Both the position numbers and the translations under genes were made by a program. DNA of 26,206 nt from a virus, in IMG/VR virus record IMGVR_UViG_3300034683_000099, positions 1 to 26,206 of that record. One strand, 5' to 3'. The notes below the pieces were generated by a model, which saw only the letters and a program-made list of their open reading frames with translations, was not told the origin of the DNA and made no database searches. Shown piece after piece: positions 3 through 20,497 of this stretch. Positions within the stretch are counted from its first letter, which is position 1, and every line of letters starts with the position of its first letter.

Positions 3-3000
3 TATTTTGCCGGTGGCTATGGCGCCTTGGCAGGGATGGTGGAGTCTACTGGTAAGACCATGGGCCTGCTAGGTCAAAAGTTGCAGGAAGAAGAGCCAGT
101 CCAGTTCGTCAGGCGCCCGGTCCCGAAGCCGTATGAATATGATCTTCCCGAAGTTGAAATGGGGCTACCCACCACTGTGGCGAGTGGCCAGGAAACTGAC
201 AAATCAGCGGCGTGGGCGCTCAAAGAAAGCGAGAGATTCAAGAAAGGTCTTCTCACCGGGAAGCACCGCGCTACGGAATTTCTAAGCCCTGAACTCCGGA
301 AGACCATCGGAAAGACGTTTGAATCCATTGGCGAGAAGATGGTCGCAGCAGGAGAACAGGCAAAGAGAGACTATCCGCTCTCCGTTGTCGACCCACGGAT
401 GCACAAGGATTTCATCGAAAACCTCAAGGACCCGAAAACGGCCTGGAGAACGATACGGCGAGGGTTTGCTTCCGGCATCACGTCGACCGCCGCGTTGCTC
501 GCATCCTCTTATGTTTTCGCCAAATCCACAGCCATGACGCAGTATAGTGGCATCGGGCCAAGGCTCGCGAAGGGGATACAGAACGCCGCTATAGGCGCTG
601 GTGCAATCTTCGCAAACATGGCTATCGGGCTTGGCGACATGTATGAAGAACTAATCAAGCAAGGCGCGCCACCCGATGACGCACTTGAAACGGCCATGGC
701 GACAGAAGCTCTTGTCGGTTCACTGGACGCTGTTCCGGAAATCGGTCCCATCGCCAGGCTCGTGAAGAAGGCGGTCGGCAAGAAAGCCGTAGCGAAGGAA
801 CTCGCGGGCGAACTCGCCAGCAACAAGGATGCACGAGCCTTCATCGCAGAAGTTCTTAAAAAGGCGAAGAAGTTGGGCGCCGAATCCGGCAAGCAACTCT
901 TGTCCGAGGGGTTCACAGAGGGGCTACAGGGTGTCGTAGAGAACGCGGCGAAACGAATTTACAACAAGCACCAGAACCTTTTCGAGGGAGTGCCCGAAGA
1001 AGCGTTTATCGGCGCCCTGGTTGGCGCATTTTTCGGTGGCGCTTCGGTCCTTGTCGAAAATGCCGCGCAGGCTGGGCAAGTCGCAGGAACCGACAAGACG
1101 ATCGACCCGCGCAAACCAAAGGACATAAAGGATCTAGCCAGGGAAGCTGAGGAGGACGTCGAAGACAAAGATCCGGTGATTGGCCTTGTCGACCAGATCG
1201 CAAGCGAGGCCGCTAGATCCGACATCATCTATGAGCCGGACGAGTACGACATCTCAGGGTTTGAAGACCCGCTTGCCGGGATGGAAGGAGCCCCGCCAGA
1301 CAGCAGTGGGGTCGGAGGCGAGATCCCTGGCATAGCGCGTCCTGATATTGTCTACGATCCTGAGGGATACGATCTGACCGGCTTTGACGACCCGCTTGCG
1401 GCTGGGCCGGCATACAGGCCCGAGCAATATCCTTCGCAGGCCAGGCCGACAGGTATTCTTGGGCCGCAGATTGCTGGTGGTGCAGTTAAGCCAGAGGAAG
1501 GAGCGGAGGTTAGCTATGCCGAAGGGATACGAGGAGATGAGGGACCGCTTTATCCGGGAGGGGTTGAGCCCGAAGCAGGCGAAAGAGAAAGCGGCGAGGA
1601 CCTGGAACGCACGCCACCCGAACAACCAGGTGGGACCGAAGGAGCGCCGCAAATCGTCCAAGAAGGGCCGAGCAAAGAAGAGATAGACAAAGAGGCGCAC
1701 AGTGCCGCGACTTCGCCCGAGAACGATCTTCCTGAGCCGACAAAGCCGCAGATAGAAGCCGGGAACTACAAGAAGGGGCACGTTCGGATTCACGGTTTTG
1801 ACATCTCCATTGAGAACCCGAAGGGGTCAGTCCGCTCCGGTGTCTCTCAAGACGGGAAAAAATGGAAGCGCAGGCTCCGTGACCATTACGGATATATTCG
1901 AGGCGTCAAGGGAAATGACAAGGGGCGTCTTGACGTTTTCGTTGGGGACAACCCAGAGAGCACGCGGGTTTTCGTTGTTGACCAGTATGATCCAAAGACG
2001 GGGCTATTCGATGAGCATAAGGTAATGCTCGGTTACTCCTCCGAGCCCGAGGCATTGGCCGCCTATAGGCGCAACTATCCGCGCTCCTGGAAGGGGCTCG
2101 GCCCTATCCGAGAATTTGACGTAGAAGGATTTAAGCAGTGGGCGTCTATCCCAGAGAATGTGCAACGGCCAGCCATCGGTCCAGAGAAGATAGAGATCCC
2201 AGAGGCCGCTACCAGGACGGAGCAGAGGCCCGAGAAAGCAAAGAAGTCGTCCAAGCCAGCCAAGCCGAGTGCAGAGGACGCACATCCAAGGCCGGAAAAG
2301 GAAGCTCCTCCTGAGCGGCCGGCTGAAGGACAGTCTGAGTCGCCGCAGACTGAACCAACATCTTCGCAGCCGGAAGCCGAGCAATCGCAGGAGTCGACAA
2401 CTCCGTTTGACGATATGGTTGATGCGGCGGCGAAGTGGCGTGCAGCCGCGATGGAAGCCGACCGCAGAATCAGTCGGATGTTGGACGAGGTGTCTCCTGA
2501 GACGAAGAGGAAGCTCATCGCCAGGCGCATGAAGATAATTCGTAACTCTGGGAAATCGGCCCTTGACCGCTACATCATGGACCGGTTCGGGGTCGACGAA
2601 GCATACGCGCGCAGCATTTCCAACGAGCTGACAGCAAAGGACATCTCCTACGACGGCCACATCGACCTAGAAAAATACAAGGATGCCCCATGGTATCAGT
2701 TCTACGAGGAGGCGATGGACCTCATTATGGAGGAGGCCATAAAGATGGCAGATAAGGAGGAGGAGGCAGGGGAAGAAGCAGGTAAAGCAGCGACGGAGCC
2801 AAGTGGGCCTGAGGCTTCTGAGCCGGAAAGCGAAGCTCAGGAGTCGATGCCAGAGGAGGCTAAGCCGAAGGGAGAAAAGCAGGAGCCCATCGAGAAGCCG
2901 AAAGCTGGAGAAGCAAAGGCGCCCGTTGGCGAAGAGATCCCGCTTGATCGCCAACGATCTATTATCGCCGGCATAATGGATGAGTTTTTCCAGCCGGATG

Positions 3001-6000
3001 AGATTATATCCGGCAGGGATCACACTCCGCCTAAGATCAGCGACATACGAAAGTTTGTATCCCAGAAAATGGGGTGGCGTGGTATCAAGCCAGGCTCCAA
3101 GGCGATCAAGCAGGTCGAGGATTTGACAGAGGCCGCCATAATTTTGGCAGCCAGGGAGATCGTTCGCCACCCAGCGTTCAAGTCGATGGGTGAGACGGAT
3201 CGCCTTGGTGTCTTCGTTAGGATGTATGAGCAGTTCCAGCCCACACTATCGTCCAGGACATCCAAGAGTATGCGGAATCAGGCGTATTCCACGCCCATAC
3301 CGCTCGCCTATATCGTACAGGCCATCGCGCAAGCGAGGAAACCGTCTGGATCGCTGAAGGTGCTGGAGCCGACAGCCGGGACGGGGATGCTCCTGTTTGG
3401 TTTCCACCCGAACACGGACATCACAGCAATCGAACTGGATAAGGACAGGTTGTCCGTCCTGCACGAACTAGTCCCGGACGCAGAGCAGGGCGATTTTCTT
3501 GATATAAACGTTGGTGGTCACACTGTCCTTGTAGCCAACCCACCATTTGGCAAGGTCCGCGATAAGGGTAGTATAAGGGCCTTTGAGGTAACTCTTCCTG
3601 ACGGGGAAACATATCGGACCTCAGAACTGGATCACGCCATAGCGATGAAGGCCCTGTCCTCCATGGACCCCAGAGGCACGGCGGTGATTATCCTAGGCGC
3701 CCCTGGCGAGATGAAGAAGTCTGAGGAGCAGCGCAAGAAAGCATACGCCAGTGCAGCCAAGAGGAAGTTTTTTTACAACCTCCAGAAAAATTTTAACGTA
3801 GTGGATCACTTTGTCGTCTCGGGCAAGTTATATTCAAAACAGGGGACGTCTTGGCCTGTTGATGTGATCGTGGTGGAGGGACGCGGCGAATCGAACTTGC
3901 CGCTTCCGAGCGTCAAGGCCCCACCCGTCATCACGGAATGGTCGCAGTTCCCTGAGGAGGTGTTGAATGGCAAGGAAACCATTAACCAGGAAGTTGGACG
4001 TGTTCTATCCCCAGAAAGTGTTCTTCCCGGAGGACAAGCTGGAGGTGGACGAGGAGGAATATCTGGACGCTCTGGTGGAGAGAGTGGATCTACTGGCGAG
4101 GCAGGCGCTCGACCTCAAGCCGGAGGAGAAGCCGACGGTAGACGACGCCCTCGATCTAGCGGACCTGCTGGAGGAAGCACTGGAGAGGCGGGTAGCAGCC
4201 TTCCCGACGAAGAAGGAACAGCTACATCCGTGGGAGTTGGAGCCGGGGGAGGCGTGGGAGTCGATACTGAGAACCCTGAGGGAGGATCTGTCGGAAGACC
4301 TGATATACAACATCCACTACCAGTCGAACCTAATGTGGGCGGGGGGATGGCCGATGAAGACCAAGAAGGCCGACCCGGAGGAACTGGAGTGGGCGATGAA
4401 CGGGCAGGGGTACGACGAACCGAATCCGCTGATCGCGTTTCTGGCCGGACTGGAACTGACAGCGAACGAGAAAGCACACCCAGGCCCACTGTTCGACCCG
4501 CCGAAGAGCAGCAGGGACCGCACCAAAAGCGATACAGACCAGAAAGCACCAGCGAATCGCTAGGCACGAACATCCCCATCAATATGGCCGACTCCGTTCG
4601 GAGGGCTCTTTCCAAGGTCGCCAGACTCTTCAGGGTTGATAATCCATCGGCAGAGCATCCGATTGACGAGTTCGTTCGTGAAAAGCTCGGATATGATTCC
4701 ATCAAGGACCTTCACAAGGTGCTATCTGCCGAGCAGATTGACGCGGTTGCCCTTGCCATCCACAACATGGAGCAGGGCAGCGGGTTCATCCTTGGGGACC
4801 AGACGGGTGTCGGCAAGGGCCGCGTCGTTGCCTCCATGATCCGCTACGCAAAGCGGATCGGTAAGATCCCCGTATTCATAACGGAATCCCCGAAGCTCTT
4901 TTCTGACATGATGCGGGATCTGAGGGATATAGGCGAAGAGCTTAATCCATATACGACGCTCGAATACGAAGCGGTAGACGAGTCCGGTGAAGTGATCTTC
5001 AAAAGGACCAAGCGCGACGTCCAGTCCGGACTCGAATCCATTATCAAGGAAGGCTCGCTCGGTAAGTATGACGCCATCTTCACCACCTATTCGCAACTCC
5101 AGACCGTCAAAGGACAGGACACCAAGCGAAGGGAACTCATAAGGAAGATCGCGGCTGATTCGGTTTTCCTTATGGACGAATCGCATAAGGCCAGCGGCCA
5201 GGCCGCAACGATAATGCAAAGAAAGAAACGTGGCTCCGGGAACACAGAAGTCCCACTGACCATGGCCGATTTTCTCCGGGATGTTCTCCTTAACGTCCAT
5301 GGCGTAATGTATGCGAGCGCCACCTTCGCAAAGAACCCTCATGCCATGACGCTCTATCACAGGACCGACATGCGCTACGTTGTGGCAAGACCGGAAGAGC
5401 TGGCCGAGGCATTGGCAAATGGTGGCGTCCCACTACAGCAGATCGTTGGCAACATGCTTGCCGAATCTGGGCAGTATATCAGGCGCGAGTATACATTTGA
5501 GGGCATCAAATTCGGGTCGCAGGAAATTCCAATTCCATTGGAAGAGTACGATTCGGCAGCCGAGGGAATGCGGAAAATCCTGGACTTTGAATCCCGCTTA
5601 CGAAAGGTCATTCGACAGCTAGAAGGGATGGTCCTTGCTGAAGCAGGGATTACCGTTACTGAAACCGGCGAGAAAGGCCAAGCCGGAGTAGATAGCACAA
5701 ATTTCACCTCGATTATGCACAATCTCATCGGCAACCTTCTTCTTGCATCGAAGGCCGATGCGGTTGTCGAAAAAGCCGTGGAGGTATTCAAGGCCGGTGA
5801 AAAGCCGGTAATCGCCCTCCACAATACCATGGAAGCAGCCATCAAGGACTTTGTGGAGAGTGAGGATCTAAGCATCGGAGACAAGGTCGATGTTGACATG
5901 AAGTTCCTCATCCATAGGTACTTGGTTAAGGCCCGCACGCTTACCGTCAAGGACGCCAATGGGAATGCGTCGAAGTTCTATATCCAGGACGAAATGTTTA

Positions 6001-9000
6001 TCGAGCTTGGTGACGAAGGCATTGCGGCCCTAGACTATTGGAACAACGCAAGTAAGTTTATCGAATCACTTGAACTAAGCTCGTATCCGTTGAGCCCGAT
6101 TGACTACATTATAAACCGGCTACGCGATGAGGGCATCAGGGTTGGGGAACTCACTGGAAGATCGTATTTCCTGAACTACAACACCAAGGACGGCATCCCA
6201 GTCCTTGACCGTCGTTCCCCGAAGGAAAGCTCAGACAAAGGCAAACGCAAGATCATCAACGCCTTCAACTCTGGGGAAATCGACGCTGTGATCGCAAATA
6301 GCAGTGCATCAACTGGCGTGAGTCTCCATTCGAGCAAGAATTTCAAGGACCAGAAAAAACGGCACATGATAATCGCCCAGGCGGCGCCAGAGATAAACAC
6401 GTTCAAGCAGATGCTTGGGCGCATCAACCGCACTGGGCAGGTTGTCAAGCCGGAATACACTTTCCTTTTCTCAAACGTTCCTGCGGAGAAGCGACCGGCA
6501 AGTCTGTTAATGAAAAAGTTGTCCGGGCTTAATGCGACGACAACGGCTGCGAGAAAGACCGCAGAGGAAATTGATCTGCCGGATATTTTCAACATCTTTG
6601 GCGACCGCGCGGTTGCACAGGCACTTTTCAATGAGCGGGAGACTGGAGTATACGCCTACCTAGGGCTCCGTGAGTCAGACCAAGAACAAGGCTCAGGTCT
6701 GAGACTTAACGAAGACCAAACGAGCTATCTACCAAACCCTGAAATAACAAGAAAGGCGACGGGACGAGTTGCGATTCTCCCTACACATATACAGGCAAAG
6801 TTTTACTCCACGGTCTTGGATCTCTTCAACCAGTACCTCGAAGAGGCGATAGCCAACGGCGAGAATCCGCTTGAGGCCAGTCGGCTCGACTTGAGGGCAA
6901 AGACCCTCCGGAAGGTCGAATTTTTCAGGCCAAACATCCCGCAAGATGTCGCAGAGAACAGCGCCTTTACTGCACCGGCTTATGTGGAACTCGTTGAGGT
7001 GAACGTCCTATCCAAGCCGATGCCGGCGTCCTCCGTCCGAGTTGCGATAGCTAAGGAACTCGGTCTAAAGCCGGATATCCGTCTCGATGCCTACAAGCGT
7101 GGCGACATATCCAGGGCAGAGTTCGGGATGGAAGATGAATATAACAAGGCAAGGATCGCCTATCACAAGCGCGTCATTGAGCAATTCGACACGGAGGTCG
7201 ACGACTATATCACAGCAATCGAGGACAACGAGCGTCTCAAACCAGAGGCGAAGGAGCGCGCGATCAACCGCGTGCGGGAACAGGCCGCGGATGTTAGAAG
7301 GATGCTTGAGACGGAGGCGTTTATCGGATCTCCTGTCGAACTTTCTAACAGGAGCACCGGCTACTACGGCCAAGGCGTGATTCTTGGATTCACAAGGAAC
7401 AATGCCGTAGCAAATCCGAGCCTCAAAAGTGCGTGGCAGGTGGTCGTAGCCACAACGGATGAGGTCCGCAAGATAAAAATCCCGCTCAGCAAGTATGATG
7501 CCCCTAGCGGAGGGTTTGTCGTCCAGCGGGCGATGAACGAGGAGGAGATTTGGCGCGACTTCGACTCCAAGCAGGAAGTCAGAAGAGAAAAACGAGTAAT
7601 GCTCACTGGAAATCTTCTCGCCGCGTTCATGGTGAAGAACGAGAAGATGAACATTGTGATGTTCACCCGAGAAGACGGTGGCACGCACGCCGGAGTTCTC
7701 CTCCCGAAGAAGGCCGACTTCGACAAGGTGGTAAAAGACGCCCCCGTGCATTTCGCAAATGGGGACCAAGTTGTGAGGTTTCTCAAGGAGAAGCGGCACC
7801 GCATGGTGTCCAGCCTCGACAAGATCATCTCCATCCAGAACCACTACGGGGACATGCTCATCAAGACGGCGGCGGCCAGGTCTAAGGCCGGGCATATCTT
7901 TCTTGATCCGCAGATAGCTAAACTCGCTGGGAAGAAGGAAGGGTTTTTCCGATCCGGCAATAACATGTATTTGCGCCTGGAGGAATTCAAGAACGCCGAA
8001 GCCGTTGTCCAATATCTCCTTGACGAGGCAGGCATCACGCTGAAGCCTGAAGTCGACAAGGACCGGGCGAAAGAGATAGTCTATGAATCGTTTGGGAAGA
8101 ACGATCAGCAAGTCACCGACGAGGGGCAAAGTCAACCATCTATTGTTCCTACGCCACCGTCTGTACCCGGCGGGCCGGTAAAGTTCGAGAGCCTCCGCGA
8201 AACACCAACGCCAAAAGGTGTTGTTGAGGTCGAGCGGCTTGAGGCATACCTTGCCGAAGGCGAGTGGGTACCGCTCCATGGCGCGAAGGTTGGTGACTCA
8301 TCTGAACTTGCTAGGCTTATGACGGTCTATCGCAACCCGGAGATGGAGGTTGCCCACCTCGTCTACATCAAAGATGGAAAGGTCGTCCATCACGAGGCGG
8401 CCACGGCATCACTCCCAGAGATCGTCAATCCCGCATTCCTTGGGAACAGGCATGGGACATCCGCATCCGAAATGCAGGAGTATTCTATCGGCCGGATTGC
8501 GGAGGTGGCTGAGCGTCTTGGTGCCGATGAGATTTACTTGGTCCACAACCACCCGTCCGGCGATCCGAAGCCGTCACGCAATGACATCGAGGCAACGAAG
8601 CAGTTAGCCACTCATTTGCCTGCGTTCAAGGGGCAAATCGTTATAGATGGTGACAGGTTCGTCTTTATCAACAGACATGGCAGGACGGATGAGAGGAAGT
8701 TTCCCGATGGATACAAAAAGCCAAACCCTTTAGACAGCATAAGGGAAGGCGAACACAAGTTCATCGGGACGGCGGTTAGAACCACAGAAGACTTGGTGGA
8801 TTTCGCTGCAATCCTAGGGTCTGTCCGGGTGATGGACAACCCTCTTATCATCATCCTTGACTCTGGCATGGTAGTGACTGGCATCTACGAGATCGACAGG
8901 GATAGTGCCCCGATCTACGATCCCGAGGCCATCCGGGAAACGAGCGGCAGGACCATCTATAACTGGCTTGACGCCATGGCGAGAAGGACTGGCCCTGGCG

Positions 9001-12000
9001 TCCAAGCTATCGTCATTGATACCGCGATAGACGAAACATCTGAAGACGCGAAGAACCTGGCAAGACTGCTTGGCAGGGGCGTTTTTGTTTCTGGTTTGGT
9101 TTCGTCCGAGTCGCTGAACGAACTCGTGCCGCTTGAGTTCGCATTCGAGCGTCATTTTGGTAGCTGGCCTACGAAACCGGGCGATGTCCGGTTTGGGATT
9201 AGCATGGGGACCCTCGTCAAGGATGCCAGGAACAATCTCGCCCTCTTCAGTCCGATGGAGCGATATGGGTTCGATAGGGAATCTGGTGAATTTACAAGTG
9301 CAGTAGACCAGGACATCCTTCTGCTTGAGGCAAAGGAAGAGCAGATACAGCGAGACATCGAGGAGATCATCGACCTAACCGAGCCCATCGAGGACGATTC
9401 CGGGGATGTCCGCTACAGATTTGGGAAGCGGATGAAGCCGCGAGAGCGGAGGTTCCGTCCCCCGCATTGGATAGCCAAGAGATGGCCAAAGTTTGCAGAG
9501 ATCTACGAGCGGCAACGAGAGCGCGACAAGATGCGCCGCAGGATGCTTTCCATGTCTCTTGAGCAGACGAGCCTCTTTTGGGATCTGAAGGGAGAGGAGT
9601 TGAACGCGCTCCGGGATCTCATCTGGGCGCTTGACGGCAGGAAGATCAAGGACATCTCTGCACAGAAGTTTGTCTTTGACAAAAAGACTGGCAAGGGCTT
9701 CCAGAATGAGGAGCATTATAGGCAACTGGCGGAGTGGTTGACGAAAAAGTCCATGGATTATGGCGGTTTAACCAAGCGCGTCGTGGATGCCTATGTTCAG
9801 ATCCGCTTTTCTTTGGACCGAGATCTTCTCACCGTCTATGAGTCCATGCGTTCTATGGACGACGTGGACCGAGGCGTTGTCGCTAACTTCAGACAACAGA
9901 TGGGGCAGATCGAAAACTACTTCCCACACAAGAGATACGGCAATTATTACGTCCAGATAACCAGGAACGTAAAGGACGAGAAGACAGGCAAGATCAAGAA
10001 GGAAGTGGTTTACAGAGAGCACTTTTATGCCATTGGCGACAAGGTTGCAAAGCGGATTTCCAAGAAGATCGCCAATCGAGCGGTTTCAGACTTAGATCTT
10101 GGTCCGAAGGAACGGCTGACCTTAAACAAGCCAGAGGTCGGCCGTGTCGAGCCGCTTCCGGAGGATGTGTTTTCGATTCCCATTCCAGTCGAAGCAATCG
10201 AGCAGGTATTGGTTGCAGCCTCTAAGCGCGTTGGCGACCAGGAAGCCGCCGAGCTGTTCAAGAGGGTGCTTCCACAGGCGGTAGCGGATACCCTCAAGTC
10301 TCGCGGCTGGGGCTCTCACATGATCCATCGTAAGGGGATCCCAGGGCATGAAACAAACGACATCAAGCGTGTTTTGCTTGATTACAAGGCCGGTCTGTAT
10401 GGCTGGATCACTAAGATGGAGGCGTCCAGGGATTTCAGTAAGGCGCTCAGGGATGTTGAAGCCGCTAAGCAGCCGGAACTTTACAAGGCGATGAGGAACT
10501 ATGTCTACCAAGTTCTTCGCAATCAGACGTACGCAGACCAAGTAAGCCACGCCATCCGTTCGGTTGCATTCATAAAGTACCTTGGCGGCAACATCAAAAC
10601 GGCGGCTGTCAATATGACTCAGAACCTCATATCCGGCATCCCCCGCCTCGGGATGGATACGAAGGCCGCAAGTATTCACTACATGAAAGCTGTGCGTGAT
10701 CTTGTGGCACATGCAACCGATGGTGGCAAGAGACTTCCCAGCGACGAACGTCGTCTTATCAAGGAACTGTTCGATGAGGGGACGACGCACGCGGCCTTTA
10801 TCGAGGAGGTCAGGGGAATAGTCGGCGGCCCGTACCGCAAAACAGCGAATCGGCTGTTAAGGGTGCTCGGACTCCCCATGGAAATGGCAGAGCGATTCAA
10901 TCGAGTGACGCTCGCCCTGGCGGCATACCGAGTTGCAAGGCGCGGTCTCATTACAAGAGGGAAGGTTCTTGCTGAGCTTGGGTTGAACGCAGGTGAGAAA
11001 GCAGATCATCGGACAGCGAAGAAGTATGCCTCAACAGTAGTAGATGATGCACACTTCGTTTATGGCATGGCGAATCGGCCAGAGGTCCTTCGTGGCGAGG
11101 GCGGCTCTCTCGTCGCATCGGCATATACCTTTAGGAGCTTCTCGCACAACCTGATTAACTTGTGGCGGTGGATGTGGGACCAAGGCGGTACAGGGCAACG
11201 TGCGATTATGAAATCCATGGCCGCGACGTGGGTGCTCGGTGGCTTGGCGTCGCTACCATTGTATAAGACAATCCTCTCCATGATGCGTCAGCTAACAGGA
11301 GAGGATTGGACGGAAGAATACGTCCTTTCCCTCATACCCAAGGGTGCTAATTGGCTTAGGGATATCGTTCTTTACGGTGTACCATCCTTGGCTGGGATGA
11401 ACATCGGCGGCTCTTTGGGCATGGAACTCCCCATCGTCAACCGGTTACGCCTTGACGAGCCGTTTGCGCGTCAAATAGCTGGATCTGCGATGGAGATTGT
11501 GGGCGTCCCGTGGGCCGTGTTTCAAGATATTGTCGACGCCATCGAGTACGGATGGCATGGAAAGATTGGTCGGAGCGCAGAGGCGCTCATGCCTGCACTC
11601 GTCGCAAACGTTTTCAGGGCATACCGGATGGCAAGCGAGGGCATGGTTTCAAGAGCCGGAACAGCCATAAACCTTCCTGGCGAGGCCGGACCTAGCAAAC
11701 TTAGCGGGTACGAGGCCGTGATAAAGGCTCTCGGCTTCCAACCAACGTCTGCGACCAAGGCATGGGATATTCACAAGACCCTAACCGATTTCATGGTCTA
11801 TCGTGACAGGGTTCGCAACGTCATGGTGATGCGCTACGTTGAGGCATATCGAGCTGGTGACAAAGAGGAGATGAAGCGCATCAAAGCAGATATCTTGGAA
11901 TGGAACCAGAAAATGATGAAGGACAGGCACCCTGAATACAAAATAGACATCAGCCGATCTGTCAGGAGCAGGGCTAGGGGCCGTAGATATCCAAAGGCTT

Positions 12001-12050
12001 TCCGCCCCAAGGCGATGGAACTGAAGGAACGTTATATTGGGAGGAAGTAA
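3..12050 (+). CDS. Giant polyvalent protein: InPase-like, N6-adenine methyltransferase, SF2 helicase, RadC-JAB, LPD38 (5' partial)
   Basis: The frame is open to the left edge, so the true start lies outside the window. Residues are numbered from the TTG at 27. Residues about 140-215 and 320-345 are hydrophobic and Gly/Ala-rich, as in ejected virion proteins. Residues 580-708 match the InPase-like domain of polyvalent proteins (DISIENPKGSVRSG, FDEHKVMLGY). An N6-adenine methyltransferase follows, with motif I VLEPTAGTGML at about 1112 and NPPF at 1171. Next is a Strawberry-notch/DarB-type SF2 helicase: GDQTGVGKGR at 1590, DESH at 1717, QMLGRINRTGQ at 2128. A RadC-like JAB domain has HNHPSGD at 2840 and a downstream Ser/Asp. 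From about 3296 to the end the sequence is LPD38-like, starting near ENYFPHKR. Known relatives such as P1 DarB are virion-borne and protect injected DNA from type I restriction; that role here is inference. Two linkers are overprinted by nested genes. Confidence 0.95.
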   Translation, partial: YFAGGYGALAGMVESTGKTMGLLGQKLQEEEPVQFVRRPVPKPYEYDLPEVEMGLPTTVASGQETDKSAAWALKESERFKKGLLTGKHRATEFLSPELRKTIGKTFESIGEKMVAAGEQAKRDYPLSVVDPRMHKDFIENLKDPKTAWRTIRRGFASGITSTAALLASSYVFAKSTAMTQYSGIGPRLAKGIQNAAIGAGAIFANMAIGLGDMYEELIKQGAPPDDALETAMATEALVGSLDAVPEIGPIARLVKKAVGKKAVAKELAGELASNKDARAFIAEVLKKAKKLGAESGKQLLSEGFTEGLQGVVENAAKRIYNKHQNLFEGVPEEAFIGALVGAFFGGASVLVENAAQAGQVAGTDKTIDPRKPKDIKDLAREAEEDVEDKDPVIGLVDQIASEAARSDIIYEPDEYDISGFEDPLAGMEGAPPDSSGVGGEIPGIARPDIVYDPEGYDLTGFDDPLAAGPAYRPEQYPSQARPTGILGPQIAGGAVKPEEGAEVSYAEGIRGDEGPLYPGGVEPEAGERESGEDLERTPPEQPGGTEGAPQIVQEGPSKEEIDKEAHSAATSPENDLPEPTKPQIEAGNYKKGHVRIHGFDISIENPKGSVRSGVSQDGKKWKRRLRDHYGYIRGVKGNDKGRLDVFVGDNPESTRVFVVDQYDPKTGLFDEHKVMLGYSSEPEALAAYRRNYPRSWKGLGPIREFDVEGFKQWASIPENVQRPAIGPEKIEIPEAATRTEQRPEKAKKSSKPAKPSAEDAHPRPEKEAPPERPAEGQSESPQTEPTSSQPEAEQSQESTTPFDDMVDAAAKWRAAAMEADRRISRMLDEVSPETKRKLIARRMKIIRNSGKSALDRYIMDRFGVDEAYARSISNELTAKDISYDGHIDLEKYKDAPWYQFYEEAMDLIMEEAIKMADKEEEAGEEAGKAATEPSGPEASEPESEAQESMPEEAKPKGEKQEPIEKPKAGEAKAPVGEEIPLDRQRSIIAGIMDEFFQPDEIISGRDHTPPKISDIRKFVSQKMGWRGIKPGSKAIKQVEDLTEAAIILAAREIVRHPAFKSMGETDRLGVFVRMYEQFQPTLSSRTSKSMRNQAYSTPIPLAYIVQAIAQARKPSGSLKVLEPTAGTGMLLFGFHPNTDITAIELDKDRLSVLHELVPDAEQGDFLDINVGGHTVLVANPPFGKVRDKGSIRAFEVTLPDGETYRTSELDHAIAMKALSSMDPRGTAVIILGAPGEMKKSEEQRKKAYASAAKRKFFYNLQKNFNVVDHFVVSGKLYSKQGTSWPVDVIVVEGRGESNLPLPSVKAPPVITEWSQFPEEVLNGKETINQEVGRVLSPESVLPGGQAGGGRGGISGRSGGESGSTGEAGARPQAGGEADGRRRPRSSGPAGGSTGEAGSSLPDEEGTATSVGVGAGGGVGVDTENPEGGSVGRPDIQHPLPVEPNVGGGMADEDQEGRPGGTGVGDERAGVRRTESADRVSGRTGTDSERESTPRPTVRPAEEQQGPHQKRYRPESTSESLGTNIPINMADSVRRALSKVARLFRVDNPSAEHPIDEFVREKLGYDSIKDLHKVLSAEQIDAVALAIHNMEQGSGFILGDQTGVGKGRVVASMIRYAKRIGKIPVFITESPKLFSDMMRDLRDIGEELNPYTTLEYEAVDESGEVIFKRTKRDVQSGLESIIKEGSLGKYDAIFTTYSQLQTVKGQDTKRRELIRKIAADSVFLMDESHKASGQAATIMQRKKRGSGNTEVPLTMADFLRDVLLNVHGVMYASATFAKNPHAMTLYHRTDMRYVVARPEELAEALANGGVPLQQIVGNMLAESGQYIRREYTFEGIKFGSQEIPIPLEEYDSAAEGMRKILDFESRLRKVIRQLEGMVLAEAGITVTETGEKGQAGVDSTNFTSIMHNLIGNLLLASKADAVVEKAVEVFKAGEKPVIALHNTMEAAIKDFVESEDLSIGDKVDVDMKFLIHRYLVKARTLTVKDANGNASKFYIQDEMFIELGDEGIAALDYWNNASKFIESLELSSYPLSPIDYIINRLRDEGIRVGELTGRSYFLNYNTKDGIPVLDRRSPKESSDKGKRKIINAFNSGEIDAVIANSSASTGVSLHSSKNFKDQKKRHMIIAQAAPEINTFKQMLGRINRTGQVVKPEYTFLFSNVPAEKRPASLLMKKLSGLNATTTAARKTAEEIDLPDIFNIFGDRAVAQALFNERETGVYAYLGLRESDQEQGSGLRLNEDQTSYLPNPEITRKATGRVAILPTHIQAKFYSTVLDLFNQYLEEAIANGENPLEASRLDLRAKTLRKVEFFRPNIPQDVAENSAFTAPAYVELVEVNVLSKPMPASSVRVAIAKELGLKPDIRLDAYKRGDISRAEFGMEDEYNKARIAYHKRVIEQFDTEVDDYITAIEDNERLKPEAKERAINRVREQAADVRRMLETEAFIGSPVELSNRSTGYYGQGVILGFTRNNAVANPSLKSAWQVVVATTDEVRKIKIPLSKYDAPSGGFVVQRAMNEEEIWRDFDSKQEVRREKRVMLTGNLLAAFMVKNEKMNIVMFTREDGGTHAGVLLPKKADFDKVVKDAPVHFANGDQVVRFLKEKRHRMVSSLDKIISIQNHYGDMLIKTAAARSKAGHIFLDPQIAKLAGKKEGFFRSGNNMYLRLEEFKNAEAVVQYLLDEAGITLKPEVDKDRAKEIVYESFGKNDQQVTDEGQSQPSIVPTPPSVPGGPVKFESLRETPTPKGVVEVERLEAYLAEGEWVPLHGAKVGDSSELARLMTVYRNPEMEVAHLVYIKDGKVVHHEAATASLPEIVNPAFLGNRHGTSASEMQEYSIGRIAEVAERLGADEIYLVHNHPSGDPKPSRNDIEATKQLATHLPAFKGQIVIDGDRFVFINRHGRTDERKFPDGYKKPNPLDSIREGEHKFIGTAVRTTEDLVDFAAILGSVRVMDNPLIIILDSGMVVTGIYEIDRDSAPIYDPEAIRETSGRTIYNWLDAMARRTGPGVQAIVIDTAIDETSEDAKNLARLLGRGVFVSGLVSSESLNELVPLEFAFERHFGSWPTKPGDVRFGISMGTLVKDARNNLALFSPMERYGFDRESGEFTSAVDQDILLLEAKEEQIQRDIEEIIDLTEPIEDDSGDVRYRFGKRMKPRERRFRPPHWIAKRWPKFAEIYERQRERDKMRRRMLSMSLEQTSLFWDLKGEELNALRDLIWALDGRKIKDISAQKFVFDKKTGKGFQNEEHYRQLAEWLTKKSMDYGGLTKRVVDAYVQIRFSLDRDLLTVYESMRSMDDVDRGVVANFRQQMGQIENYFPHKRYGNYYVQITRNVKDEKTGKIKKEVVYREHFYAIGDKVAKRISKKIANRAVSDLDLGPKERLTLNKPEVGRVEPLPEDVFSIPIPVEAIEQVLVAASKRVGDQEAAELFKRVLPQAVADTLKSRGWGSHMIHRKGIPGHETNDIKRVLLDYKAGLYGWITKMEASRDFSKALRDVEAAKQPELYKAMRNYVYQVLRNQTYADQVSHAIRSVAFIKYLGGNIKTAAVNMTQNLISGIPRLGMDTKAASIHYMKAVRDLVAHATDGGKRLPSDERRLIKELFDEGTTHAAFIEEVRGIVGGPYRKTANRLLRVLGLPMEMAERFNRVTLALAAYRVARRGLITRGKVLAELGLNAGEKADHRTAKKYASTVVDDAHFVYGMANRPEVLRGEGGSLVASAYTFRSFSHNLINLWRWMWDQGGTGQRAIMKSMAATWVLGGLASLPLYKTILSMMRQLTGEDWTEEYVLSLIPKGANWLRDIVLYGVPSLAGMNIGGSLGMELPIVNRLRLDEPFARQIAGSAMEIVGVPWAVFQDIVDAIEYGWHGKIGRSAEALMPALVANVFRAYRMASEGMVSRAGTAINLPGEAGPSKLSGYEAVIKALGFQPTSATKAWDIHKTLTDFMVYRDRVRNVMVMRYVEAYRAGDKEEMKRIKADILEWNQKMMKDRHPEYKIDISRSVRSRARGRRYPKAFRPKAMELKERYIGRK
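1216..1405 (+). repeat. Two-copy 22-residue coding repeat in the giant protein
   Basis: Residues RSDIIYEPDEYDISGFEDPL (from about 1218) recur as RPDIVYDPEGYDLTGFDDPL (from about 1340). The spacing is about 120 bp and the changes are conservative. The repeat sits in the disordered linker between the N-terminal hydrophobic part and the InPase-like domain. It looks like a short linear binding motif in tandem, possibly for a virion partner; that is inference. Confidence 0.6.
1516..1686 (+). CDS. Nested 56-aa basic phage protein inside the giant gene (+1 frame)
   Basis: The product starts MPKGYEEMRDRFIREGLSPK and ends in a Lys/Arg-rich tail. The first 40 residues resemble a small protein often found in phage genomes, of the form M-P-x-G-Y-x-x-M-R-D-x-F-x-x-x-G-(M/L)-S-x-K-x-A-K-x-K-A-A. 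Its function is unknown. GGAGG at 1505-1509 lies 6 nt before the ATG and TAG closes the frame at 1684-1686. In the giant frame the same bases encode an acidic Gly/Pro/Glu-rich linker without recognisable fold. The resemblance, the SD site and the clean stop argue for a translated gene. I identified the family by memory of its pattern, not by a search. Confidence 0.7.
   Translation: MPKGYEEMRDRFIREGLSPKQAKEKAARTWNARHPNNQVGPKERRKSSKKGRAKKR
3967..4563 (+). CDS. Nested 198-aa acidic protein inside the giant gene (+1 frame)
   Basis: GAGGAGG at 3954-3960 lies 6 nt before the ATG, and the frame closes with TAG at 4561-4563. The product is acidic (about 42 Asp/Glu against 26 Lys/Arg by my count). 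It has amphipathic helical stretches such as LDALVERVDLLARQALDL at residues 33-50, a Trp-containing middle (WELEPGEAWESI; MWAGGWPM) and a polar tail. Codon third positions are mostly G/C in this frame, as in the rest of the giant gene. In the giant frame the same bases give a Gly/Ser/Arg-rich linker with many A- or T-ending codons. It lies exactly between the methyltransferase and helicase domains. I do not recognise the family. A regulatory or DNA-mimic role would be speculation. The case for a real gene is strong on composition and SD. Confidence 0.75.
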   Translation: MARKPLTRKLDVFYPQKVFFPEDKLEVDEEEYLDALVERVDLLARQALDLKPEEKPTVDDALDLADLLEEALERRVAAFPTKKEQLHPWELEPGEAWESILRTLREDLSEDLIYNIHYQSNLMWAGGWPMKTKKADPEELEWAMNGQGYDEPNPLIAFLAGLELTANEKAHPGPLFDPPKSSRDRTKSDTDQKAPANR

Positions 12051-16861: not shown

Positions 16862-17573
16862 GGTCCGCCTCCTTCCCGGCTCGAATTTCGCCCTCAGGCG
16901 CACGATCTCCGGCAGACATATGCTGTGATACCTGATTCGCGAGATCTTCAAGCAGAGGCAAACCTCGCGCGCCCTGACCGGTGTTTTTTCCGTGGTCATC
17001 GCCAAGCTCTGCGGCGACAACCTTGCGCCACCCGATCTCAAGAAAAGCTTTTGAGGTCCCGTACACGTCCGGCTTGCCTACGTGTTCCCGGAAACCGAGG
17101 GCCATGTTCCTGGCATCGTGAGAACACCAAAGGACCCGTGGTCGGCCTGACTGGTGGGCTAGGGCCTCGTACATCCCGAGAAATTCCTTCTGACGCCACT
17201 TCAGGTCCTCGGTCCGCCATGAGCAGACCGACTCCCAGCCGCCCATCAGCTCCACCACGCGGGTTATCACGGGGTCCTCGAACAGCACGGACCCGTGAGC
17301 ACCGGTCCCTCGGATCGCCCGGAGTAGCGTCTCCCATCCGACGACGGCCCGACTCTCTGTCCCTCCGTAGAGCGCGGCCTCAAGGTCCGCGACCTTTGGG
17401 AAAAATCTTTGAGTGCGCATGGCCGATTGAGCGGCCGCCTTGAACGCTTCAAGCTCCCAGTCCTTCAGTAGGTTCCAGTACAGTTCCATGAGAGCCTGCG
17501 ACGGCTCCCGTCCGTAGTAGTCGCACATGGCGGCGAACACCATGGCGAACTCCTTGGCGTCGCTGTCACGCAT
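16854..17573 (-). CDS. DUF6475-like replication protein, probable helicase loader
   Basis: The 239-aa product has the pattern FAAMCDYYGREPSQALMELY, then RFFPKVADLEAALYG, then SVLFEDPVITRVVELMGGWE and FLGMYEALAHQ. Phage proteins of this type sit directly after a winged-helix replication initiator, as lambda P follows O, and are thought to recruit the host replicative helicase. Two start ATGs lie 6 nt apart. The inner one (17573) has GGAGG at 8 nt and is preferred. It overlaps the initiator stop. Loader function is inferred from position and family resemblance. Confidence 0.75.
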   Translation of the reverse strand: MRDSDAKEFAMVFAAMCDYYGREPSQALMELYWNLLKDWELEAFKAAAQSAMRTQRFFPKVADLEAALYGGTESRAVVGWETLLRAIRGTGAHGSVLFEDPVITRVVELMGGWESVCSWRTEDLKWRQKEFLGMYEALAHQSGRPRVLWCSHDARNMALGFREHVGKPDVYGTSKAFLEIGWRKVVAAELGDDHGKNTGQGARGLPLLEDLANQVSQHMSAGDRAPEGEIRAGKEADHD

Positions 17574-18477
17574 CCTCATTTCCTCCCGTTCCTTTGCGTT
17601 TCAGCCATTCCTCGACGGCACCCATGCGGCTCTCGACCTTCGTCGAAAAGTATCCGCGACCCCTACCTCGCCCATTACTCTTATCACGCAGTACCCACTC
17701 GGCTTTGAATCCCTGCCAGCCGCGCGCTGTACATTCCGCCAGCGCGTCAGCCAGGGGCCAGCCCGCCTTGTCGGCCTCGGAGCGGATACGGGCGAGCGCC
17801 GTCTGGGTCACCGGCGCGCGCTTGGCCTTGCGGTGCGCCAGGAAATCGCGCCACACGTCCTCGGGTACGTCGTCCGGGCGAGAGACAGTGGCCGGCGCTG
17901 ATCGCTTCTTGGCCGGTTTGGCCTTCCGCTTCGGAGAAGGTGTCGCGGTTGCCGTCCCGGCCCCGTCAGGGGGCGGTGGTGTGAGCGCGCCGCCCTCGCG
18001 CGCGCGTGTATTATCAGGTTCCTTGGTAGGTTCATTTGGTAGGTTAAGTAGTAGGTTAATATAGTGGGGGTGACTCTCTGTCACCCCCCCCTGACTCTCT
18101 GTCAGGGGTACCCCTGACTCTCTGTCACCCCTCCCCTGACTCTGTGTCACCCCTGACTCTGTGTCACCCCTGACTCTCTGACACCCCTCCCCTGACTCTC
18201 TGTCAGGGGTGACTCTCTGACACCCGTCTAGGTGCAGGACGTACATCGACGGTCGGCCACGCCGTCGTTCCACTGAGATTAGTCCCAGGCTCTCAATGAG
18301 CAGTAGAGCCCGATATACCGATCGCTCTGTGAGGCCAGTGGATTCGGACAGGTGGCGCACGCTCGGGTAACAGGACCCGTCCTTGTCAGCCATTTCAGCC
18401 AGTCGGAGTAACACGAGCTTCGCTATGGGAGGGACTACTGTGATTCCCCATGCCCATCTGGTCGCCTCAAGACTCAT
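17566..18477 (-). CDS. Phage replication initiator (lambda O-like) with origin inside the gene
   Basis: The 303-aa product has a winged-helix domain at residues 5-78 (YPSVRHLSESTGLTERSVYR, then SLGLISVERRRGRPSMYVLH) as in phage replication initiators. Residues about 85-140 are low-complexity Glu/Ser/Gly/Thr sequence, because that DNA is an array of eight iterons. A Lys/Pro/Ala-rich linker and a C-terminal domain follow (VPEDVWRDFLAHRKAKRAPV; GWQGFKAEWV). In lambda, O binds iterons inside its own gene and P brings DnaB. The gene order here is the same. The start overlaps the upstream stop as ATGA. Confidence 0.88.
   Translation of the reverse strand: MSLEATRWAWGITVVPPIAKLVLLRLAEMADKDGSCYPSVRHLSESTGLTERSVYRALLLIESLGLISVERRRGRPSMYVLHLDGCQRVTPDRESGEGCQRVRGDTESGVTQSQGRGDRESGVPLTESQGGVTESHPHYINLLLNLPNEPTKEPDNTRAREGGALTPPPPDGAGTATATPSPKRKAKPAKKRSAPATVSRPDDVPEDVWRDFLAHRKAKRAPVTQTALARIRSEADKAGWPLADALAECTARGWQGFKAEWVLRDKSNGRGRGRGYFSTKVESRMGAVEEWLKRKGTGGNEDA
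18021..18066. other. AT-rich three-copy repeat, candidate DNA unwinding element
   Basis: TAGGTT occurs at 18027, 18040 and 18052, giving three similar units of 12-13 bp in an A/T-rich stretch set between GC-rich flanks. It lies 5 nt from the first iteron. This arrangement of iterons next to A/T-rich near-13-mers is that of lambda ori and oriC-type origins. On the coding strand it encodes a Leu/Asn-rich segment. Confidence 0.55.
18071..18222. repeat. Eight-copy iteron array, candidate replication origin
   Basis: The 13-mer TGACTCTCTGTCA or a one- or two-base variant starts at 18071, 18092, 18115, 18137, 18154, 18171, 18193 and 18210, all in the same direction. Spacings are 21, 23, 22, 17, 17, 22 and 17 bp. 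Each unit has TGAC/GTCA-type ends, so it is partly palindromic, and units are separated by C-rich spacers. The spacing does not keep reading frame, so the repeats are selected as DNA rather than as peptide. The array lies within the initiator gene. Confidence 0.85.
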
Positions 18478-19318: not shown

Positions 19319-20497
19319 TCACCATTCGCCTTCACTGTCTTTGTAGAGGTCGAAGCGTTGGTAGGTTTTGGACTGTCCGTACTTCGCCATGAGCATGGCG
19401 CGCACTTCATCGTCCCGCACAAGCCTTTCGAGACCCTTCTTGTCGATCTTCATGGCGGACAGGACCTTTTCCTGTGGCAACCCAAAACCGATAGCCGACT
19501 TGATGAATCCGATTGGGTCTGTCAGCGACCACGACTCGATGTCGCGCAGTTCGGCCGACTTCCCGGCGGCCTGGACAGCCCCGTGGTCCTTGACGTATGC
19601 CTTGAGCCTGTCCTTGATCTGCTTCAGGATCTGGTCCGCGAACACCAAGAATTCCACGGCCCGCTCAGCCTGCTCGGGCGTGGTGATCTCGGTGGGGATC
19701 GTCGGAGCGGCTGGCGGCATCGCACCCACCAGCGCCGTCTCAGCCTCGGAAACGGCTGGGCAGTCCGGGGCCTGACAGTTGGAGCACAGGGCACCTGGGA
19801 CTGCCGGGAACTCGGTCCATGAGTTTACGGTCTCGATGTGAGCCCGGATCATGGCGAGCTTCTCATCAAACTCCTTTTCTGCGTCTCCCACCGAGCATTC
19901 CATCACCGGAACATATTTCCCACGGCGATGGTCGAGAAAACCGAGTTTGATCTCTTCGATCTCGGATAGGCGCTCATGGCATTTGACGTAGAACGCTGCG
20001 TAGGTGACGAGCTGGGCCGGGTCAGCGCTTCCCCAGCCGGTCTTGTCGTCGATGATGTGGAGCGTTTTCCCGGTGACATATGCAAAATCAGCCACCAGCC
20101 GGAACGCAACGCCCGGATCCAGCCATTCGCACGGACTGAAACCGTCGCCGTTCAGGGAATACCCCATCTTTTGCTCCACAGCATGCCAGGTGGTGTTGGT
20201 GGGCACCAAGACAGCAGGGCTGTCCATGACGCCATCCATGAGGTCCTTGACCTCCTGGGCCTCGTCTTCATGTAGCTGCCCGGTGATCTTGGGTATGACC
20301 TCGTCGAAATACTCGACGTCAGACTGGAGCCCCCTCACAAGGCAGCGGGTCCTATACTCGGCCATGATCTCATGGATCGCCGACCCGATCCTCATGGCCG
20401 GGCTCTCGGGCTCTGTGTAGGACTTGGCAATATGCTTGGCGTGAAAACGGAACGGGCACGCCATATCCTGTATCCTGGACCAGCTAAGCGCAATCAT
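19319..20497 (-). CDS. Cas4/RecB-type PD-(D/E)XK exonuclease with Fe-S cluster motif
   Basis: The 392-aa product shows the RecB-family nuclease core: His42 in GSAIHEI, Asp136 in RLVADFAYV, Asp149-x-Lys151 in IIDDKTG and the QxxxY motif at 161 (QLVTY). Cys14 with Cys237, Cys240 and Cys245 forms the four-cysteine pattern that holds a 4Fe-4S cluster in Cas4 and AddB. A helical C-terminal extension follows (residues 265-392). Likely role: end resection for phage recombination or replication. No annealing protein was recognised next to it. The start overlaps the upstream stop as ATGA. Confidence 0.87.
   Translation of the reverse strand: MIALSWSRIQDMACPFRFHAKHIAKSYTEPESPAMRIGSAIHEIMAEYRTRCLVRGLQSDVEYFDEVIPKITGQLHEDEAQEVKDLMDGVMDSPAVLVPTNTTWHAVEQKMGYSLNGDGFSPCEWLDPGVAFRLVADFAYVTGKTLHIIDDKTGWGSADPAQLVTYAAFYVKCHERLSEIEEIKLGFLDHRRGKYVPVMECSVGDAEKEFDEKLAMIRAHIETVNSWTEFPAVPGALCSNCQAPDCPAVSEAETALVGAMPPAAPTIPTEITTPEQAERAVEFLVFADQILKQIKDRLKAYVKDHGAVQAAGKSAELRDIESWSLTDPIGFIKSAIGFGLPQEKVLSAMKIDKKGLERLVRDDEVRAMLMAKYGQSKTYQRFDLYKDSEGEW

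Follow-up and report, generated by a model that had tools for sequence, protein, structure and literature searches.

Host gene, linker and nested frame

The window analysed here is a 26 kb viral contig (26,206 nucleotides), the first part of which is occupied by a single giant gene for a polyvalent protein (Table 1). The giant frame is open at the left end of the window, so that the gene is longer than 12 kb, and it carries a methyltransferase and an SF2 helicase within one frame, as DarB-type genes do (PHROG 45 bits and AAA_34 61.4 bits, respectively). The methyltransferase domain, for which a Pfam N6_Mtase match falls below the Pfam cut-off, ends at a conserved WPVDVIVVEGR anchor. A segment in the C-terminal half of the giant frame, HNHPSGDPKPSRND, presumably resembles a RadC/JAB metal-binding motif, and the giant protein therefore probably carries further domains. 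An antisense ORF inside the giant gene has a codon-position GC that follows the giant frame and is probably a shadow ORF. Elsewhere in the window, PHROG matches to a replication initiation O-like protein and to an exonuclease were found, suggesting that the phage carries a lambda-like replication module.

Table 1. Features of the window and of one plasmid relative
Feature	Position	Strand	Remarks
Giant polyvalent gene	3..12050	+	>4015 aa; 5' end outside window; N6-methyltransferase and strawberry-notch-type SF2 helicase domains
Methyltransferase domain, giant frame	3261..3890	+	NPPF motif; PHROG DNA methyltransferase, 45 bits; alignment
Linker, giant frame	3891..4562	+	Gly/Ser/Arg-rich; 672 nt between methyltransferase and helicase
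Shine-Dalgarno (SD) of nested gene	3954-3960	+	GAGGAGG; 6 nt before ATG, read from sequence
Nested gene, +1 frame	3967..4563	+	198 aa; pI 4.64; net charge -16
SF2 helicase domain (AAA_34), first part, giant frame	4563..5402	+	Pfam 61.4 bits, cut-off 27
Antisense ORF within giant gene	7065-8279	-	404 aa
Replication initiation O-like protein	17566-18477	-	PHROG match
Exonuclease	19319-20497	-	PHROG match
Nested frame on pAQ6, Picosynechococcus sp. PCC 7002	101013 down to 100507	-	inside SYNPCC7002_RS15125

Between the two enzymatic domains lies an ORF in the +1 frame, which starts with the ATG at 3967, ends with a TAG at 4561-4563 and is directly preceded by an in-frame TGA at 3964-3966; the giant frame runs uninterrupted across it. 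A preliminary description of this DNA had reported a 198-aa +1 ORF with GAGGAGG 6 nt before its ATG, G/C-rich third positions in that ORF, and a giant frame that turns into Gly/Ser/Arg filler over the same bases. All of these observations were borne out. Over the nested stretch, the GC content at codon positions 1/2/3 was 0.76/0.65/0.37 when read in the giant frame, as compared with 0.62/0.44/0.63 and 0.57/0.39/0.63 in the giant gene upstream and downstream of it, respectively. Read in the nested frame, the stretch gave 0.65/0.37/0.76, as is normal for coding DNA. In a phase scan of the 12 kb of the giant gene, a clear phase swap was seen solely over the nested stretch. Order-promoting residues made up 34% of the nested protein and 31% of the methyltransferase, versus 13% of the giant-frame linker, and the giant reading of the linkers contained 18% Gly. 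Judged by this composition, the giant-frame linker is probably disordered, and its odd composition can be attributed to nested coding on the same bases.

The role of chance was assessed by keeping the giant amino acids fixed, resampling their synonymous codons and counting how often the +1 frame remained open. The frame of the window stayed open in 13% of the resamplings, and in 3-7% of them in stricter versions of the test. Openness of the frame in the window is thus weak evidence for a gene, the window by itself makes a moderate case, and proof of a nested gene rests on comparison with relatives. One near-identical contig differs from the window by 4 mismatches in 12 kb and is therefore uninformative.

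Conservation and selection among homologous linkers

Homologous methyltransferase-helicase genes were gathered from viral contigs, GTDB genomes, phages and plasmids, and their linkers were cut out between fixed anchors. The relatives that proved decisive are approximately 40-45% identical to the window in the flanking domains. The +1 frame contained an ORF of 85 aa or more in 139 of 155 distinct linkers, or in 138 once one decayed gene (L123) is discounted, while the +2 frame was mostly closed. In 116 of the 139, the start lies precisely 73 or 76 nt downstream of the methyltransferase anchor; an ATG is the start codon in 133, and a Shine-Dalgarno sequence is present in 120. The window, with an ATG at offset 76 behind GAGGAGG, conforms to this pattern. 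Starts in the Bacteroidetes group lack a Shine-Dalgarno sequence and are often preceded by A-rich sequence, a pattern common in that phylum.

The preliminary description had regarded relatives that keep the giant frame but not the nested one as a sign against the gene. Such relatives do exist, i.e., 15 intact loci, but 11 of these have linkers of just 222-300 nt and 13 fall into one separate clade. Linkers with the nested ORF measure about 390-1170 nt, so that much of the linker length is due to the nested gene. Long linkers that are devoid of it occur at L019 (540 nt), L125 (480 nt), L142 (567 nt) and L152 (564 nt), perhaps owing to losses or to other linker content. Two copies look decayed, as the giant frame of L123 and L159 contains 4 and 2 stops, respectively, in the linker.

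An unrooted tree of the flanking domains, into which 137 of the 138 nested loci were entered, indicated that presence of the nested gene changes about five times. Within it, the window falls into a supported clade, 125 of whose 127 members carry the nested gene. On this unrooted tree, a single origin within the clade appears likely, and the gene, which could have been taken for a private oddity of the window, is instead typical of a large group.

No locus was shared among the 22 pairs of relatives in which selection was examined, although common descent leaves the pairs short of strict independence; the result on purifying selection comes from these pairs, as the window has no suitably close relative. 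Inside the ORF, substitutions at nested positions 1/2/3 numbered 339/299/643 (chi-square p 1e-36), compared with 225/186/684 at giant positions 1/2/3 of the adjacent methyltransferase. The least variable position inside the ORF is therefore nested position 2, which is the third position of the giant frame. In each of the 22 pairs, conservation was higher in the nested protein than in the giant reading. Substitution patterns in both frames across homologues, a comparison that had been proposed at the outset, thus indicate purifying selection that follows the nested frame. Constraint on that frame alone would leave the giant frame open in approximately 5% of resamplings (0.7% for the window), whereas the giant frame was open in all 138 nested loci tested, which argues that both frames are selected. 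From these comparisons, the nested frame appears to be kept for its sequence and the giant frame mainly for its continuity.

The nested protein and its genomic contexts

BLAST or profile comparison linked most of the nested proteins to one another; those that profile comparison left apart were the Bacteroidetes group, a Vibrio pair and several single sequences. A family profile (A3) built from 67 members, with the window left out, matched the window's nested protein with 20.2 bits (E 3.5e-5 for 1000 sequences). The best of 2000 shuffles reached 9.7 bits, and all other frames of the window also scored below 20.2, while copies on plasmids scored up to 82 bits. At 20 bits, the nested protein of the window is best placed as a distant member of the family.

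AlphaFold2 modelling of a cyanobacterial member (L155) gave a pLDDT of 89 and a pTM of 0.83; in this model, six main helices follow two short strands. When modelled from an alignment of other members, the nested protein of the window showed the same order of elements (pLDDT 74.9, pTM 0.66). The confident, mostly helical fold predicted for the family is that of L155. Its members are acidic, with a median pI of 4.4 and a median net charge of -10, although several groups carry just -3 to -5.

Scans of 67 relatives against Pfam and PHROG returned scattered weak matches and no covering family. PHROG 16732, a weak match of the window's nested protein (E 0.015), was dropped since it was not matched by the relatives. 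Structure searches of PDB and BFVD yielded nothing significant, the best VIA Z of 4.2 being in the range of common helical arrangements. With the window's nested protein as the sole query, the viral contigs returned its own near-identical contig and the phage collection returned nothing; the search of phage databases that the preliminary description had recommended was therefore fruitless in that form, and the family emerged via the flanking domains. Similarly, tblastn with two family members found nothing in plasmids and phages, though plasmid copies could be reached through the host gene.

By contrast with these single-sequence queries, a profile search of ten whole genomes recovered 18 copies in nine genomes, and all 18 lie between a methyltransferase and a helicase that share one frame. 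A stand-alone homologue was found neither by sequence nor by profile or whole-genome searches; the preliminary description had counted such an absence against the gene, but it carries no weight against a gene that is always nested. Unannotated copies were located on plasmids of Picosynechococcus PCC 7002 (pAQ6) and PCC 7117, of Chroococcidiopsis and, with a weaker match, of Thalassospira. Tryptic peptides predicted from the pAQ6 nested frame include VWIPSGEGDQALFMVR and IPANLTALDWQTYLELMK. In Bacteroides phage BS-TP4 the giant gene alone is annotated, and the nested gene was unannotated in every annotated record checked. No such nested gene was found on a Yersinia ruckeri plasmid. The same holds for DarB of phage P1, which is weakly similar to the window's giant gene and has no comparable +1 ORF, so that the nested gene does not extend to the DarB archetype. 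The comparisons place it in phages and plasmids of Cyanobacteria, Proteobacteria and Desulfovibrio, and probably of Bacteroidetes. One genome, that of Nodosilinea sp. LEGE 07298, holds at least five methylase-helicase copies with the nested gene (contigs L137, L139, L145, L147 and L153). In the related strain from which L155 comes, a gene resembling that of a conjugative coupling ATPase lies close by, suggesting conjugative elements.

Interpretation and relation to known systems

We consider the nested ORF to be a real, translated gene that is overprinted in the +1 frame on the methyltransferase-helicase linker, with a probability of about 0.92. The proposal of the preliminary description, namely that a real gene read in a foreign frame makes up the linker, is supported by the place, frame and start common to 138 of 155 linkers, the selection on the nested frame, the independent profile match and the predicted fold. 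Both the reality of the gene and the selection on it are shown by comparison, and from these its translation is strongly inferred. In the mechanism that we propose, ribosomes would start at the internal SD-ATG on the mRNA of the giant gene and produce an acidic, mostly alpha-helical protein of 90-200 aa. Other ribosomes would read through in the giant frame to yield a Gly-rich, probably disordered spacer, which would be under little constraint beyond the avoidance of stops. As to the origin of the gene, we lean towards de novo emergence in an expanded linker rather than insertion, because no stand-alone relatives were found.

A Gly/Ser/Arg-rich linker seldom gives off-frame stops, and the nested ORF might accordingly be a shadow ORF left open by chance, as the +1 frame of the window was in about 13% of synonymous resamplings. 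Chance would not explain why frame, start and Shine-Dalgarno sequence are common to most of the 155 linkers while the +2 frame is mostly closed, nor the selection on the nested frame and the confident predicted fold, and nested coding itself accounts for the unusual make-up of the giant linker; we regard this explanation as extremely improbable. Ribosomal frameshifting out of the giant frame, which would give the methyltransferase an alternative C-terminus and no separate protein, is suggested by the position of the nested frame directly after the methyltransferase and, in a minority of loci, by a +1 frame that stays open upstream into this domain. However, the fixed distance of the SD-ATG argues against it, and upstream entry is blocked or narrowed by a stop immediately before the ATG in 49 of 139 loci, including the window, and by a stop within five codons upstream in 103 of 139, making frameshifting very improbable. 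We give similarly little credence to the idea that the Shine-Dalgarno sequence and start serve as a translational pause that aids separate folding of the domains, with the nested peptide as a by-product. Although the site does lie at a domain boundary and its Shine-Dalgarno sequence is conserved, a pause needs neither an open frame of 90-200 codons, nor purifying selection on amino acids, nor a folded product.

With regard to function, the product of the nested gene may be made in cis to serve the methylase-helicase as accessory subunit or regulator; it might, for example, be a partner by which the enzyme is controlled or held prior to packaging or transfer. We suggest this role with low confidence, because all copies were found inside the host gene and none stand-alone. 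The main rival is an independent anti-defence protein, e.g., an inhibitor of restriction enzymes that acts as an acidic DNA mimic and shares nothing but the transcript with the methylase-helicase. The acidity of the family (median pI 4.4; net charge of -16 in the window) is consistent with such a mimic, as is the role of DarB, the archetypal host gene, in shielding phage DNA from restriction (PMC5512222). Stand-alone copies would be expected of an independent inhibitor, though, and were not found in the whole genomes searched; nor was any useful fold match in PDB or BFVD. Moreover, the mimics Ocr and ArdA carry far more negative charge than the -3 to -5 of several groups, and we hold an independent inhibitor to be unlikely. 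Returning to the role as subunit or regulator, it is possible, and put forward tentatively, that the nested proteins form an undescribed family, for which no matching fold was found. Such a family would exist solely overprinted in the mobile-element methylase-helicases of phages and plasmids from several bacterial phyla, and would supply this anti-restriction machinery with an obligate second component that shares its coding bases with the linker.

Both overprinted genes and internally translated subunits are already known as kinds, as exemplified by comS and Cas11. The comS gene is nested in srfAB of Bacillus subtilis, is expressed from that operon and can be separated from it by changes that are silent in the host frame (PMC12915044). 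The likeness is that of a small gene in a distinct frame within a giant multidomain gene; the nested product described here differs in its 90-200 aa, its predicted fold and its occurrence in phages and plasmids of several phyla. ComS has approximately 46 aa, is restricted to Bacillus and lies on a cellular biosynthesis gene. The Cas11 small subunit, for its part, arises by internal initiation inside cas8 or cas10d, the gene of its large partner (PMC11899642). Cas11 is read in the frame of that partner, whereas the nested product is out of frame and its partnership putative. The host gene shares its arrangement of methyltransferase and SF2 helicase with P1 DarB and the polyvalent methylase-helicase dyad (PMC5512222), from which it differs in that P1 DarB lacks a comparable nested gene. 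In the 2017 survey of polyvalent proteins the word "overlap" is absent from the text (PMC5512222), and the nested gene was undescribed in the literature searched, which consisted of journal papers, mostly from non-subscription journals.

A further parallel is Rz1 of phage lambda, which is nested out of frame in Rz and whose product works with that of its host gene; Rz1 is a short lipoprotein of the lysis machinery and is unrelated to the nested family. To our knowledge, no folded, widely spread out-of-frame gene of such size has been described in mobile elements. Long out-of-frame nested genes are rarely accepted in prokaryotes, most claimed cases being young, local and poorly conserved. The gene presented here, by contrast, appears to be old, widely spread and predicted to fold, and was overlooked in annotation. 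It accounts for the length of the methylase-helicase linker as well as for its unusual composition, and may represent a second component added to a widespread family of anti-restriction proteins.
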